Assembly: GCF_900102195.1 (NCBI RefSeq)
Contig: NZ_FNBE01000013.1
Location: 62,001-126,000, forward strand
Origin: Pseudonocardia oroxyli
GTDB lineage: Bacteria > Actinomycetota > Actinomycetes > Mycobacteriales > Pseudonocardiaceae
DNA: 64,000 nt
Direction: 5' to 3'
This document shows, in pieces, positions 7,480-31,003 of the stretch. The notes beneath the pieces are model-generated. The model had not been told where the DNA came from and made no database searches. It saw only the letters and a program-made list of their open reading frames with translations. Both the position numbers and the translations under genes were made by a program. Numbering within the stretch: the first letter of the stretch is position 1; each line of letters begins with the position of its first letter.

Positions 7480-8256
7480 TCAGACCCCTTCCCCGAGCAC
7501 GATCGCGGCCTCCTCGGCCGAGTGCTGGCCGGGGCCGAGGTACACCTCCTGCACCTTCGGATCGGCCTGCACCTCGGCGACCGTGCCCTCGGAGAGCACC
7601 TTCCCGGCGTGCAGCACCGTCACCGACTTGGCGAAGGACCGCATGAAGTCCATGTCGTGCTCGACGACGACCACCGTGCGGTCCACGCAGATCCGCCGCA
7701 GCAGCCTGCCGGTCTCGTCCTTCTCCTCGGCGCTCATCCCGGCGACCGGCTCGTCGAGCATGAGCAGCCGCGCGTCCTGCACCAGCAGCATGCCGATCTC
7801 CAGCCACTGCTTCTGGCCGTGCGCGAGGATGCCCGCCTTGGTGTCCCGCAGGTCCGCCAGCCCCACGGTCTCCATCGCCTCGGTCACGGCCTCCGGGACC
7901 CCCGACCGCTTGCGCAGCAACGTCCACGGCGAGCGGCCCGCCCCCGCCGCGATGTCGAGGTTCTGCAGCACGCTGAGCTCCTCGAACACCGTCGCGGTCT
8001 GGAACGTGCGGCCCACGCCCCTGCGGGCGATCTGGTGCACCTTGCGACCGAGCAGGTCCTCGCCCGCGAACTCGGCGCGCCCGGTGGCCGAGACCAGCCC
8101 GGACACGGCGTCGATCAGGGTGGTCTTGCCCGCGCCGTTGGGGCCGATCAGGAAGCGGAGGTCGCCCTGCAGCACGGTCAGGTCCACGCCGTCGACGGCC
8201 ACGAACCCGTCGAAGCTCACCGTCAGCCCGGACAGCTCCAGGTAGTCCTTGTTCAC
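7480..8256 (-). CDS. urtD: Urea ABC transporter ATP-binding subunit UrtD
   Basis: 258 aa with Walker A (GPNGAGKTTLIDAVSG), a UrtD-type signature LAHGQKQWLEIGM replacing LSGGQ, Walker B (LLMLDEPVAGM) and VVEHDMDFMRSFA. It pairs with UrtE on the cytoplasmic face. Its GTG start at 8256 overlaps the stop of the last of four tandem mini-ORFs (GTGA), so its translation is probably coupled to them rather than directly to urtC. Confidence 0.94.
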   Translation of the reverse strand: MNKDYLELSGLTVSFDGFVAVDGVDLTVLQGDLRFLIGPNGAGKTTLIDAVSGLVSATGRAEFAGEDLLGRKVHQIARRGVGRTFQTATVFEELSVLQNLDIAAGAGRSPWTLLRKRSGVPEAVTEAMETVGLADLRDTKAGILAHGQKQWLEIGMLLVQDARLLMLDEPVAGMSAEEKDETGRLLRRICVDRTVVVVEHDMDFMRSFAKSVTVLHAGKVLSEGTVAEVQADPKVQEVYLGPGQHSAEEAAIVLGEGV

Positions 8257-8294
8257 GCCGCCTCCGTGGGACTGAGTGCGTCGGCGGGGTTCAC
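8253..8294 (-). CDS. urt junction mini-ORF 4 (13 aa)
   Basis: GTG at 8294 reads MNPADALSPTEAA and stops at a TGA that overlaps the urtD GTG start (GTGA). It is the last link of the relay leading into urtD. Too short for an enzyme; the plausible role is translational coupling. Coding status is inferred from the conserved frame and overlaps only. Confidence 0.5.
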   Translation of the reverse strand: MNPADALSPTEAA

Positions 8295-8332
8295 GCCGCC
8301 TCCGAGGGACTGAATGCGTCGGCGGGGTTCAC
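8291..8332 (-). CDS. urt junction mini-ORF 3 (13 aa)
   Basis: GTG at 8332 reads MNPADAFSPSEAA and stops in the GTGA that starts mini-ORF 4. It differs from its neighbours only at the Leu/Phe and Ala/Ser/Thr positions. Confidence 0.5.
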   Translation of the reverse strand: MNPADAFSPSEAA

Positions 8333-8370
8333 GCCGCCTCCGCGGGACTGAATGCGTCGGCGGGGTTCAC
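8329..8370 (-). CDS. urt junction mini-ORF 2 (13 aa)
   Basis: GTG at 8370 reads MNPADAFSPAEAA and stops in the GTGA that starts mini-ORF 3. Same 38-bp unit architecture as its neighbours. Confidence 0.5.
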   Translation of the reverse strand: MNPADAFSPAEAA

Positions 8371-8447
8371 GCCGCCTCCGCGGGACTGAGTGCGTCGGCG
8401 GGGTTCACGCCGCCTCCGCGGGAGTGAGTGGGTCGGCGGGGTTTCAC
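8367..8447 (-). CDS. urt junction mini-ORF 1 (26 aa, frameshifted first unit)
   Basis: GTG at 8447 overlaps the urtC stop (GTGA). One extra T in this first unit shifts the frame, so it reads MKPRRPTHSRGGG and runs straight into the second unit's VNPADALSPAEAA before stopping in the GTGA of mini-ORF 2. Without the extra base the first unit would read MNPADPLTPAEAA, the same peptide as the others. Confidence 0.45.
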   Translation of the reverse strand: MKPRRPTHSRGGGVNPADALSPAEAA

Positions 8448-9562
8448 GTCGTCCGCCCTTCCGCGGGAGCGAGGACCTCGGCGGGCGCAGGCTCCGGATC
8501 CGCCCCGGCAGTCGGGTCGGCGGTGTCCGAACGGCGGCGCCGCCACGAGACCAGCGACGCCAGACCCCCCGGCAGGAAAGCGACGACCAGCATGAACAGC
8601 AGCCCCTGGGCGTAGGTCCAGCCGGAGGGGAACTGCTCGGAGAGGGTGGTCTCGGCCCAGGCCACGGCGATGGCGCCGAGCACCGGCCCGGCGAGCGTGG
8701 TCCGCCCGCCGATGGCGACGCCGATCAGCAGGCCGATGGACGGGACGACGCCCACGTCGTTGGGCGAGATGATCCCGACGATGGGCACGAACAGCGCCCC
8801 GCCGATGCCCGCCATCATCCCCGCGACGGCGAACGCGACGGTCTTGATCGTCGCCGGGTCGTAGCCGAGGAACCGGACCCGCTCCTCGGCGTCCCGGCAG
8901 GCGACGAGCAGCTCCCCGAAGCGGCTGACCATGAGCCGCCACGCCACGAACACCATGAGAAGCAGCACGCCCGCGGCGATGAAGTAGAGCATCTGCCGGT
9001 TCGCCGGGTCCCGCAGCGAGAACCCGAAGAAGCCCTTGAAGTTGTTGAGACCGGTGGAGCCGCCGGTGGCGGTCGGGTTGCCGATGAGCAGGATCGCGAA
9101 GGCTGCCGCGAGGGCCTGGGAGAGGATCGCGAAGTAGGCCCCCCGGACCCGCCGCCGGAAGGTGGCGAGACCGAGCAGGGTGGCGAGCAGCGTCGGCAGC
9201 ACGAGGATCGCGACGATCGTGACCGCGCCCGAGCGGAAGGGCTCCCACCAGCCCGGCACGCCGTCCGACGAGATCAGCGCCATGAAGTCCGGGACGCCGC
9301 CGGGCCCCGCGTCGGCGAGCTTGAGGTGCATCGCCATGAGGTAGGCGCCGATGCCGAAGAACACGCCCTGGCCCAGGGTCAGCATGCCGCCGCGGCCCCA
9401 GGCGAGCCCGATCCCGACCGCGACCATCGCGTAGCAGAGGTACTTGCCGAGCAGACCCAACCGGAACGTGGTGAGCAGGGCGGGGGCGACGGCGAACAGC
9501 AGGACGGCCGCGACCAGGAACCCGATCCCGACGGCGTACCGGCTGCGCAGCAGCGCTGTCAT
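8444..9562 (-). CDS. urtC: Urea ABC transporter permease UrtC
   Basis: 372 aa, LivM-type permease with about ten hydrophobic segments and the loop FLGYDPATIKTVAFAVAGMM, which contacts the ATPases. It forms the membrane channel with UrtB. The ATG at 9562 overlaps the stop of a 13-aa mini-ORF (ATGA) and the gene ends in a GTGA that opens the next mini-ORF chain. Confidence 0.94.
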   Translation of the reverse strand: MTALLRSRYAVGIGFLVAAVLLFAVAPALLTTFRLGLLGKYLCYAMVAVGIGLAWGRGGMLTLGQGVFFGIGAYLMAMHLKLADAGPGGVPDFMALISSDGVPGWWEPFRSGAVTIVAILVLPTLLATLLGLATFRRRVRGAYFAILSQALAAAFAILLIGNPTATGGSTGLNNFKGFFGFSLRDPANRQMLYFIAAGVLLLMVFVAWRLMVSRFGELLVACRDAEERVRFLGYDPATIKTVAFAVAGMMAGIGGALFVPIVGIISPNDVGVVPSIGLLIGVAIGGRTTLAGPVLGAIAVAWAETTLSEQFPSGWTYAQGLLFMLVVAFLPGGLASLVSWRRRRSDTADPTAGADPEPAPAEVLAPAEGRTT

Positions 9563-9600
9563 GATGCCGCCTCCGCGGGAAGAAGTACGTCGGCGGTCAC
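9559..9600 (-). CDS. urtB-urtC junction mini-ORF (13 aa)
   Basis: GTG at 9600 overlaps the urtB stop (GTGA), reads MTADVLLPAEAAS, and stops in an ATGA that starts urtC. The peptide shares the AD..LPAEAA pattern with the four mini-ORFs between urtC and urtD, and the DNA matches their repeat unit, so the two junctions have a common origin. Confidence 0.5.
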   Translation of the reverse strand: MTADVLLPAEAAS

Positions 9601-10481
9601 ACGAGGCTCCTCGTCCGGACCTGGAAGATCCCCTGCGGGCGGAACTGGAGGAACGCCACGACCAGGGCGAACACGATGACCTTGGCGATGGACGCGGACG
9701 TGGAGTACTCGATCCAGGACTGCGCGACGCCGAGCACGAAGGCCGCGATCACGGCGCCCTTGATCTGCCCGATGCCGCCGATGATCACGACGAGGAAGGC
9801 GTCCACGATGTAGCTCGTCCCGAGGTTGGACGAGATGGAGCCCATCAGCGTGAGCGCCACCCCGGCGACGCCCGCCAGCCCGGAGCCGAGGAAGAAGGTC
9901 AGCATGTCCGTGCGGCGGGTGGAGATGCCGGCGGACTCGGCGAGCTGGCGGTTCTGCACGGTGGCGCGGATCCGGCGGCCCAGCGGGGTCAGCTTCAGCA
10001 GCAGGGTCACGGCCACGACCGCGACGATGGCCAGGACCAGGATGAACAGCCGCGAGCGCGGGAAGGAGAACCCGAGGATCTCCACCGGCCCGGACAGCCA
10101 CCCCGGCGCCGGGACGTCGACGCCCGCGGTGCCGAACAGGTCGCGGGCGAGCTGCTGCAGGATCAGCGAGACACCCCAGGTGACCAGCAGCGTGTCCAGC
10201 GGCCGGTGGTACATGCGGCGCAGCAGCGTGACCTCGAGGAGCACCCCGAGCAGGCCGCCGACGACGAAGCTGACGGGGAGCGAGACCAGCAGGGACAACC
10301 CGGCGTCGCCGAGCACCTGCTGGCACACGTAGGCGGTGTAGGCGCCGGCCATCATGAACTCGCCGTGCGCCATGTTGATCACGCCCATCTGCCCGAAGGT
10401 CAGGGCGAGGCCGAGCGCGGCGAGCAGCAGGATCGAACCGACGGAGAGCCCGTTGAAGACCTGGGTGACGAGGATGTCCAC
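9597..10481 (-). CDS. urtB: Urea ABC transporter permease UrtB
   Basis: 294 aa, LivH-type permease with multiple membrane spans, GQMGVINMAHGEFMMAGAYT near the N-terminus and TPLGRRIRATVQNRQLAES in the cytoplasmic coupling loop, both diagnostic of UrtB. The GTG at 10481 has AAGGA 8 nt upstream. It is separated from urtA by 105 bp containing a strong hairpin. Confidence 0.94.
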   Translation of the reverse strand: MDILVTQVFNGLSVGSILLLAALGLALTFGQMGVINMAHGEFMMAGAYTAYVCQQVLGDAGLSLLVSLPVSFVVGGLLGVLLEVTLLRRMYHRPLDTLLVTWGVSLILQQLARDLFGTAGVDVPAPGWLSGPVEILGFSFPRSRLFILVLAIVAVVAVTLLLKLTPLGRRIRATVQNRQLAESAGISTRRTDMLTFFLGSGLAGVAGVALTLMGSISSNLGTSYIVDAFLVVIIGGIGQIKGAVIAAFVLGVAQSWIEYSTSASIAKVIVFALVVAFLQFRPQGIFQVRTRSLV

Positions 10482-10508
10482 AGGGGAAGTCCTTCCGCCC
10501 GGGGACCC

Positions 10509-29903: not shown

Positions 29904-30728
29904 TCAGGACTGCTGCACGCCCGAGTTGCTCGAACCGGTCGACGCGGCGGACTGGTGCACGTCGCCCGAGCTGAGGATGCCGCCGATGTTGACGGTCGGG
30001 TTGATCTGCAGGTTCAGCCCGAGCAGGCTGCCGCCCTGCGCGGCCTTCTGCGACCCGCCGCCGTGCCCGCCGCCGTGCCCGCCGCCGTGCCCGCCGGAAC
30101 CGGACTGCTGCACGCCCGAGTTGGCGGACGAGTTCGAGTAGGCGGTCTGCGTGACGTCGCCGGAGTTCAGGATGCCGCCCGCGTTCACCGCCGGGTCGAC
30201 CTGCACCAGCCCGGAGACCAGGTCACCGGCCTGGAAGGACTCCTGGCCGCCGCTGGAGTCGTGCCCGCCGTGACCGTGGCCGTGCCCCGAGCCGCCGGAC
30301 TGCTGCACGCCCGAGTTCGCCGAGCTCGCCGAGTAGGCGTTCTGGTGCACCCAGCCGGAGTTGCCGATGCCGCCGACGTTCGCCGCCGGGTTCACCTGCA
30401 GGAGCCCGCCGACGAGGTCCCCGCCCTGGACCGCGGTCTGGCGGCCCGAGCCGTGCCCGCCGGACTGCTGCACGCCCGAGTTCGCCGAGGACGCCGAGTA
30501 CGCCTTCTGGTTCACCGACCCCTTCGACAGGATGCCGCCGACGTTGAGCGCGGGGTTCACCTGGCCGAGCAGGCCCACCAGGCTCCCGCCCTGGACGGCG
30601 GTCTGGCGGCCCGGGCCGGAGTCGTGGTGGTACTCGCCGGCCTGGGCGACGCCGGTCCCGGCCAGGGTGAGCGGCACCCCGAGGGCGCTGACGGCGACGA
30701 TGCGGGCGGTACGGGTGAAGCGAGACAT
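29904..30728 (-). CDS. Secreted four-repeat Gly/Ser/Asn/Gln-rich protein
   Basis: 274 aa. Signal peptide at 1-30 (cleavage after AQA), then four copies of a unit of about 46 residues reading QTAVQGG-LVG-L-QVNPA-NVGGI--SG-V-Q-AYSASSANSGVQQS, joined by Gly/His linkers (GHGHGHGGH, GGHGGGHGGGHGG). No Cys, no catalytic motif and no membrane anchor. The regular beta-prone Asn/Gln/Ser/Gly repeats suggest a self-assembling surface or amyloid-like protein, and the His linkers could bind metal. It does not look like a chaplin or a rodlin. Function inferred only from composition. Confidence 0.8.
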   Translation of the reverse strand: MSRFTRTARIVAVSALGVPLTLAGTGVAQAGEYHHDSGPGRQTAVQGGSLVGLLGQVNPALNVGGILSKGSVNQKAYSASSANSGVQQSGGHGSGRQTAVQGGDLVGGLLQVNPAANVGGIGNSGWVHQNAYSASSANSGVQQSGGSGHGHGHGGHDSSGGQESFQAGDLVSGLVQVDPAVNAGGILNSGDVTQTAYSNSSANSGVQQSGSGGHGGGHGGGHGGGSQKAAQGGSLLGLNLQINPTVNIGGILSSGDVHQSAASTGSSNSGVQQS

Positions 30729-31003
30729 CACGGCTCCTGGAGTGGGCGCGCCGCATCGACCGACCACAGTGGACTTTCACGAGCCACCGCACCGGCTGCG
30801 ACCTGAACGTTTCCGGGGATGTCCACCGGCGTCACCACCCGCAGACGTTCACTTCAACGACGGTCACTCGATAGGGGTACGGCGGTGACGGAGAAGTGAT
30901 GTCGATCTCTCAGCGGCAACGCATCTCACTCGTTCAGGTACCGCAGAGTGCTGCTCCGTTCAGCGGAGTGTCACCGCGGCGTCCCTGCAGTGTCAGCGGA
31001 TCG

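Follow-up and report, generated by a model that had tools for sequence, protein, structure and literature searches.

Rickettsia palindromic elements are palindromic repeats that are able to sit in frame within protein-coding sequence. REP elements are short, dispersed, imperfect palindromes that are typically extragenic and are served by a Y1 (RAYT) transposase. Closest to the case presented here are the mycobacterial interspersed repetitive units (MIRUs), which insert at start codons and carry an internal ORF that is coupled to its neighbors with a spacing of -4 nt (Supply et al. 1997, as summarised in a 2025 review, PMC12548453). MIRUs come in sizes of 77 and 53 bp (PMC2453075), and units are present at senX3-regX3, where they are said to be confined to M. 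leprae and the M. tuberculosis complex (PMC4213456).

We consider it probable (roughly 80%) that tandem units in the urt operon of Pseudonocardia oroxyli belong to a MIRU-like repeat of 38 bp that has inserted in DTGA overlaps, has been tandemly duplicated, and is crossed by ribosomes in a terminate-reinitiate relay through its mini-ORFs. In the open-access literature, outside which most subscription papers lie, we found this repeat described for neither Pseudonocardia nor Amycolatopsis.

Repeat units at two junctions of the urt operon

The window is the whole stretch of DNA that was analysed, 64,000 nt of P. oroxyli (GCF_900102195.1, contig NZ_FNBE01000013.1, positions 62,001-126,000 of the forward strand). 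It carries urtABCDE on its minus strand, and all five products exceed the curated NCBIfam cut-offs (UrtA TIGR03407, UrtB TIGR03409, UrtC TIGR03408, UrtD TIGR03411, and UrtE TIGR03410). The features of the two junctions are given below in the direction of transcription.

9597..10502, minus strand: urtB, the upstream gene; start taken at 10502, although longer frames exist
9563..9600, minus strand: lone urtB-urtC unit (38 bp), GTG at 9600
9559..9600, minus strand: mini-ORF of this unit, MTADVLLPAEAAS, with GTGA in and ATGA out; TGA at 9561-9559
9567..9596, minus strand: hairpin of this unit, CCGCC-GA-CGT, a 10-nt loop, and GCG-GA-GGCGG; Shine-Dalgarno GGAGG (9574-9570) in the 3′ arm
8444..9562, minus strand: urtC, ending with TGA 8446-8444 inside GTGA 8447-8444
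8409..8447, minus strand: unit 1 (39 bp), GTG 8447 overlapping the urtC stop as GTGA; one additional A on the coding strand
8371..8408, minus strand: unit 2 (38 bp), GTG 8408
8367..8447, minus strand: first mini-ORF of the chain, 26 codons, VKPRRPTHSRGGGVNPADALSPAEAA, covering units 1 and 2
8333..8370, minus strand: unit 3 (38 bp), GTG 8370
8329..8370, minus strand: mini-ORF from GTG 8370, VNPADAFSPAEAA, TGA in the next GTGA
8295..8332, minus strand: unit 4 (38 bp), GTG 8332
8291..8332, minus strand: mini-ORF from GTG 8332, VNPADAFSPSEAA, TGA in the next GTGA
8257..8294, minus strand: unit 5 (38 bp), GTG 8294; the urtD GTG follows directly
8253..8294, minus strand: mini-ORF from GTG 8294, VNPADALSPTEAA, TGA 8255-8253 overlapping the urtD GTG
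7480..8256, minus strand: urtD, GTG start at 8256

The urtC-urtD gap consists of five tandem units (39 + 4 × 38 bp), each with a GGAGG and a GTG, and TRF reports the array with a period of 38, 5.2 copies, and 95% matches. The 13-codon frame from GTG 8408 in unit 2 reads VNPADALSPAEAA and ends at a TGA in the next GTGA. Because the GTG at 8447 reads 26 codons to the TGA of unit 2 (8369-8367), the chain comprises four mini-ORFs over five units.

An earlier, sequence-only reading had held that five 38/39-bp units with GGAGG and GTG fill this gap, that 13-codon frames run from the last four GTGs to TGAs that overlap the next GTG as GTGA, that the urtC stop is overlapped by the first GTG and the urtD start by the last TGA, and that a single related unit of the same design lies at urtB-urtC. 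The coordinates, the TRF result, and the translations all agree with this description. The extra base that it pointed out in unit 1 does shift the frame. The base does not break the relay, however, as the 26-codon frame reaches the unit 2 TGA.

Elsewhere in the window (29904-30767, minus strand), a 287-aa ORF carries repeated blocks of the type NSG.VHQ.AYS..SANSGVQQS and, by eye, resembles a multi-domain, chaplin-like surface protein.

Dispersed copies, stop-start overlaps, and empty sites

The 38-bp repeat (consensus ACCGCCGACGTRCTYYYTCCCGCGGAGGCGGCAT) is present in 12 copies at seven junctions of the P. oroxyli genome. Besides the six urt units, the genome has a tandem pair between the genes for an OpuC-type ATPase and permease (L009), one unit at MrpE/MrpF (L010), and one unit at each of three further junctions (L017, L018, and L019). 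Dispersal was followed with the core CCGACGN7TCCCGCGGAGGCGNC, allowing one mismatch, and reversed-pattern controls were near zero in the genus search. A core match is present in 45 of 60 genomes of the same genus, with up to 30 copies per genome, and in 47 of 201 genomes of Pseudonocardiaceae (20 of 47 genera). Consensus-like copies in the rest of the order are restricted to two further small families (genome G262 in f12 and one match in f14), where other matches are isolated and off consensus. The order family inferred to be Mycobacteriaceae has no consensus-like copies of the 38-bp repeat. In G262, which lies outside Pseudonocardiaceae, 10 unit copies are found, some of them in tandem. Among the matches listed in a scan of named genomes, most come from Pseudonocardia, Amycolatopsis, Prauserella, and Gandjariella. 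Furthermore, a weight matrix for the unit detects 238 sites of at least 14 bits on both strands of 2.15 Mb of fetched loci, compared with none in the same DNA reversed. Judged by sequence, the units are copies of a dispersed MIRU-like repeat of Pseudonocardiaceae rather than a urt device.

A total of 139 distinct arrays were classified heuristically by open frames and codon-position GC. Eighty of these have an RTGA at both entry and exit, and in 65 of the 80 the entry TGA ends a coding ORF while the exit RTG starts one, which is the case for 1.8% of random DTGA sites; the sampled sequences are related, and these counts are not independent. Within the 80 arrays, 37 of 44 steps from one unit to the next measure 38 bp. 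The unit occurs in two phase variants, with the same peptide frame (TADVLLPAEAA) in both. The other 59 arrays are not clean relays, and many are fused in frame with a neighboring gene or lie in leaders. At L162 and L010, units are read as C-terminal tails of the upstream protein (MrpE in L010), not as separate mini-ORFs.

The urt junctions were compared in 15 same-genus genomes with a bona fide UrtD, P. oroxyli included. At urtB-urtC, the sister genome G029 reads GAGCCTCGT-ATGACC, and P. oroxyli reads GAGCCTCGT, a GTGA-led 38-bp unit, and then ATGACA; this unit is found in P. oroxyli only (1 of 15 genomes). At urtC-urtD, two units are present in G029 (GCAGGCATGA...GGCATGAACACCGACTAC) and zero at the same place in G054 (GCAGGCGTGAACGCCGACTAC). 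Bare GTGA and ATGA are seen in G032 and G043, and TGATG in most others. No unit is recognisable at this junction in 13 of the 15 genomes, where the start of urtD lies instead in a bare ATGA, GTGA, or TGATG. Most relatives likewise have a bare ATGA at the OpuC junction. In G028 (L179), GTCCCGCGGAGGCAACCGATGA directly before urtD could be the remnant of a unit. The urtD tree places P. oroxyli and G029 as sisters (91/88) in a weakly supported clade whose remaining members lack units.

These comparisons bear on two points. That unit number could vary between strains is borne out at the level of species (5, 2, and 0 units at urtC-urtD), which is what the comparison covers. That urtD needs a relay in front of it is contradicted by the 13 genomes without a unit there, the very pattern that the sequence-only reading had named as evidence against its proposal.

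The median difference between units is 1 of 32 positions within an array and 5 between arrays. Because the units within an array are near identical, local duplication is likely to be part of their history, and the simplest history would be insertion at DTGA followed by local tandem duplication. The genome comparisons document the dispersal of the repeat, its exact place in stop-start overlaps that are empty in relatives, its frame design, and its tandem growth. The repeat itself is probably mobile.

Hairpin, reading frame, and proposed translation across the units

The general fold of the unit is CCGCC-GA-CGY, a 10-nt loop, and GCG-GA-GGCGG, with GGAGG within the 3′ arm. Its folding energy is no better than that of dinucleotide shuffles, and thus no unusually stable RNA fold is evident. 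Nevertheless, the closing pair covaries (C-G with G-C and T-A). It is paired in 173 of 211 distinct sequences where 140 are expected, with 26 double changes, no shuffle among 2000 as good, and negative slid controls, although these figures do not amount to a formal probability because the sequences are related. For the two pairs that follow, there are 3 and 2 double changes. The hairpin could act in RNA, where the Shine-Dalgarno sequence would be hidden until a ribosome opens the fold, or in DNA during movement, and the data fit both.

In the mechanism that we propose, the 38-bp repeat would insert into the DTGA (ATGA or GTGA) overlap between a stop and the next start in an operon and would then multiply locally by tandem duplication. 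Each unit provides a start overlapping the upstream stop, a mini-ORF of 3 × 13 - 1 bases, a strong Shine-Dalgarno sequence, and a stop that overlaps the start after it. A ribosome that has finished the upstream gene would terminate and reinitiate at each unit in turn and so arrive at the downstream gene. Because the Shine-Dalgarno sequence lies in the 3′ arm of the hairpin, little initiation is expected within the array except where a ribosome that is translating the mini-ORF has opened the fold; in this manner the hairpin may mask the Shine-Dalgarno sequence. Perhaps the repeat persists because it leaves gene-to-gene coupling largely intact. Translation across the units most plausibly proceeds by such a relay, and we infer that the mini-ORFs are translated, that reinitiation occurs, and that the effect on expression is near neutral. 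The terminate-and-reinitiate chain first proposed for urt stands as anatomy, which recurs at scores of unrelated operon junctions, but not as a urt-specific device, given that the repeat is dispersed. A more elaborate proposal is tentative and, in our estimate, has perhaps one chance in a few of being correct. It would regard the unit as a 38-nt mobile mini-cistron whose own hairpin hides its Shine-Dalgarno sequence, such that its translation depends entirely on ribosomes passed on by the gene upstream. Arrays would then be tunable translational resistors, and a slip from 38 to 39 bp would create repeated N-terminal extensions, a recurrent route to new protein sequence.

Forms of the latter kind are present in Amycolatopsis and other genomes, where a 39-bp spacing or a missing terminal stop lets units run in frame into downstream proteins. 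N-terminal fusions to known protein types were found at eight loci (L071, L073, L155, L065, L112, L118, L127, and L164), two of them consisting of two 13-residue repeats. For example, the FAD oxidoreductase at L071 carries two units ahead of its Rossmann domain, which begins at residue 31. The pyrimidine nucleoside phosphorylase at L127 and the PaaD-like protein at L065 each have one unit in front. As these frames are read, a one-base change converts the relay into an N-terminal extension, and unit 1 of the window has made such a step towards unit 2.

Could the mini-ORF number instead have been selected to set the permease to ATPase ratio, with ribosomes lost at each termination-reinitiation step? 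In favor of this, nothing interrupts the chain between the stop of urtC and the start of urtD, and species differ in how many units they carry. However, junctions unrelated to urt carry the same unit, none is recognisable at urtC-urtD in 13 of the 15 genomes that have UrtD, and the urtB-urtC unit is confined to P. oroxyli. We regard this explanation as improbable, and a role of the units in setting such ratios is unsupported. Regulation specific to urt is rejected as the origin of the unit, given its dispersal and its absence from most relatives. The near identity of units within an array would also be expected if chance slippage had merely duplicated the urtD ribosome-binding region, with no mobile or dispersed element involved. 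This is the least probable account of all, since it is contradicted by a 26-bp core at scores of unrelated loci in many genera, with none in reversed controls.

Another possibility is that the peptide TADVLLPAEAA is itself the conserved product, as a functional micropeptide family. One reading frame is kept in nearly all copies, including the 39-bp copies fused to proteins, but the codons of the units are atypical for the host. GTA, CTT, and GCA are frequent in units but hardly ever used by the urt genes: GTA accounts for 0 of 161 Val codons and CTT for 1 of 191 Leu codons of urtA-E, and CTG, the commonest Leu codon of these genes, does not rank among the top nine codons at the CTY position of the units. 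Moreover, a different frame is used in unit 1 of the window and in L063, and the path to the next start is still open there. Peptide-level selection is disfavored by this codon choice and these alternate frames and seems highly improbable; by these comparisons, it is nucleotide sequence and connectivity that are conserved in the units, not the peptide. Only slightly less remote is the possibility that the unit is a palindromic DNA element of the REP kind, mobilized by a Y1 (RAYT/IS200-type) transposase, with a hairpin that serves transposition rather than translation. The unit is a dispersed, imperfect palindrome with covarying arms, as this explanation would have it, but the strict sense orientation and the reading frame are left unexplained. 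A search of 13 copy-rich genomes for Y1_Tnp (PF01797) found it in G262 only, and no transposase was linked to the repeat. With PF01797 missing in 12 of 13 genomes, a Y1 transposase was rejected as the mover.

Comparison with MIRUs and other small repeats

The 38-bp repeat resembles MIRUs in being a short repeat dispersed over many loci and in its stop-start (DTGA) insertion, with an internal ORF that overlaps both neighbors by 4 nt (65 of 80 relay arrays, in addition to the empty sites). Tandem copies of variable number (5, 2, and 0 at urtC-urtD, between species) and an internal Shine-Dalgarno sequence are also shared, as is a length of 3n - 1, which holds for 38 (3 × 13 - 1), 53, and 77. The two differ in size class (38 versus 53 or 77 bp) and in hosts (Pseudonocardiaceae versus mycobacteria), and the 38-bp repeat has a hairpin with the Shine-Dalgarno sequence in one arm as well as 39-bp in-frame forms. 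Local alignment to the 53-bp MIRU scores as shuffled sequence does, with nothing shared beyond ATGACC, and sequence homology to MIRU was rejected on this score. Therefore, the 38-bp repeat appears to work like a MIRU but outside the MIRU sequence family.

The in-frame 39-bp forms recall Rickettsia palindromic elements, although the main habitat here is the stop-start overlap and the fusions are seen at protein ends. With REP elements and their RAYT transposases the repeat shares its nature as a dispersed imperfect palindrome, but it lies in sense orientation in overlaps, and the Y1 transposase expected in the same genome is absent from 12 of the 13 genomes noted above.

That a second family, unrelated to MIRU in sequence, follows the same DTGA target and 3n - 1 logic suggests that small repeats in actinobacteria find a general safe harbor in stop-start overlaps. 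Because non-pathogenic genera offer clean pairs of empty and filled sites, direct tests of coupling, of copy-number effects, and of mobility are within reach. In addition, the 39-bp fusions to nucleoside phosphorylase, PaaD-like, and FAD-oxidoreductase genes illustrate how repeats can turn into protein N-termini.

A separate observation concerns senX3-regX3 itself, in genomes assigned to Mycobacterium by inference from RegX3 identities of 92-99%. MIRU-type inserts of 154 and 53 bp are present at this junction at L199 and L200, in genomes other than that of the M. tuberculosis query sequence, which contrasts with the restricted distribution described previously (PMC4213456). The insert at L200 is exactly 53 bp in an ATGA site, and the corresponding ATGA sites at L197 and L198 are empty.
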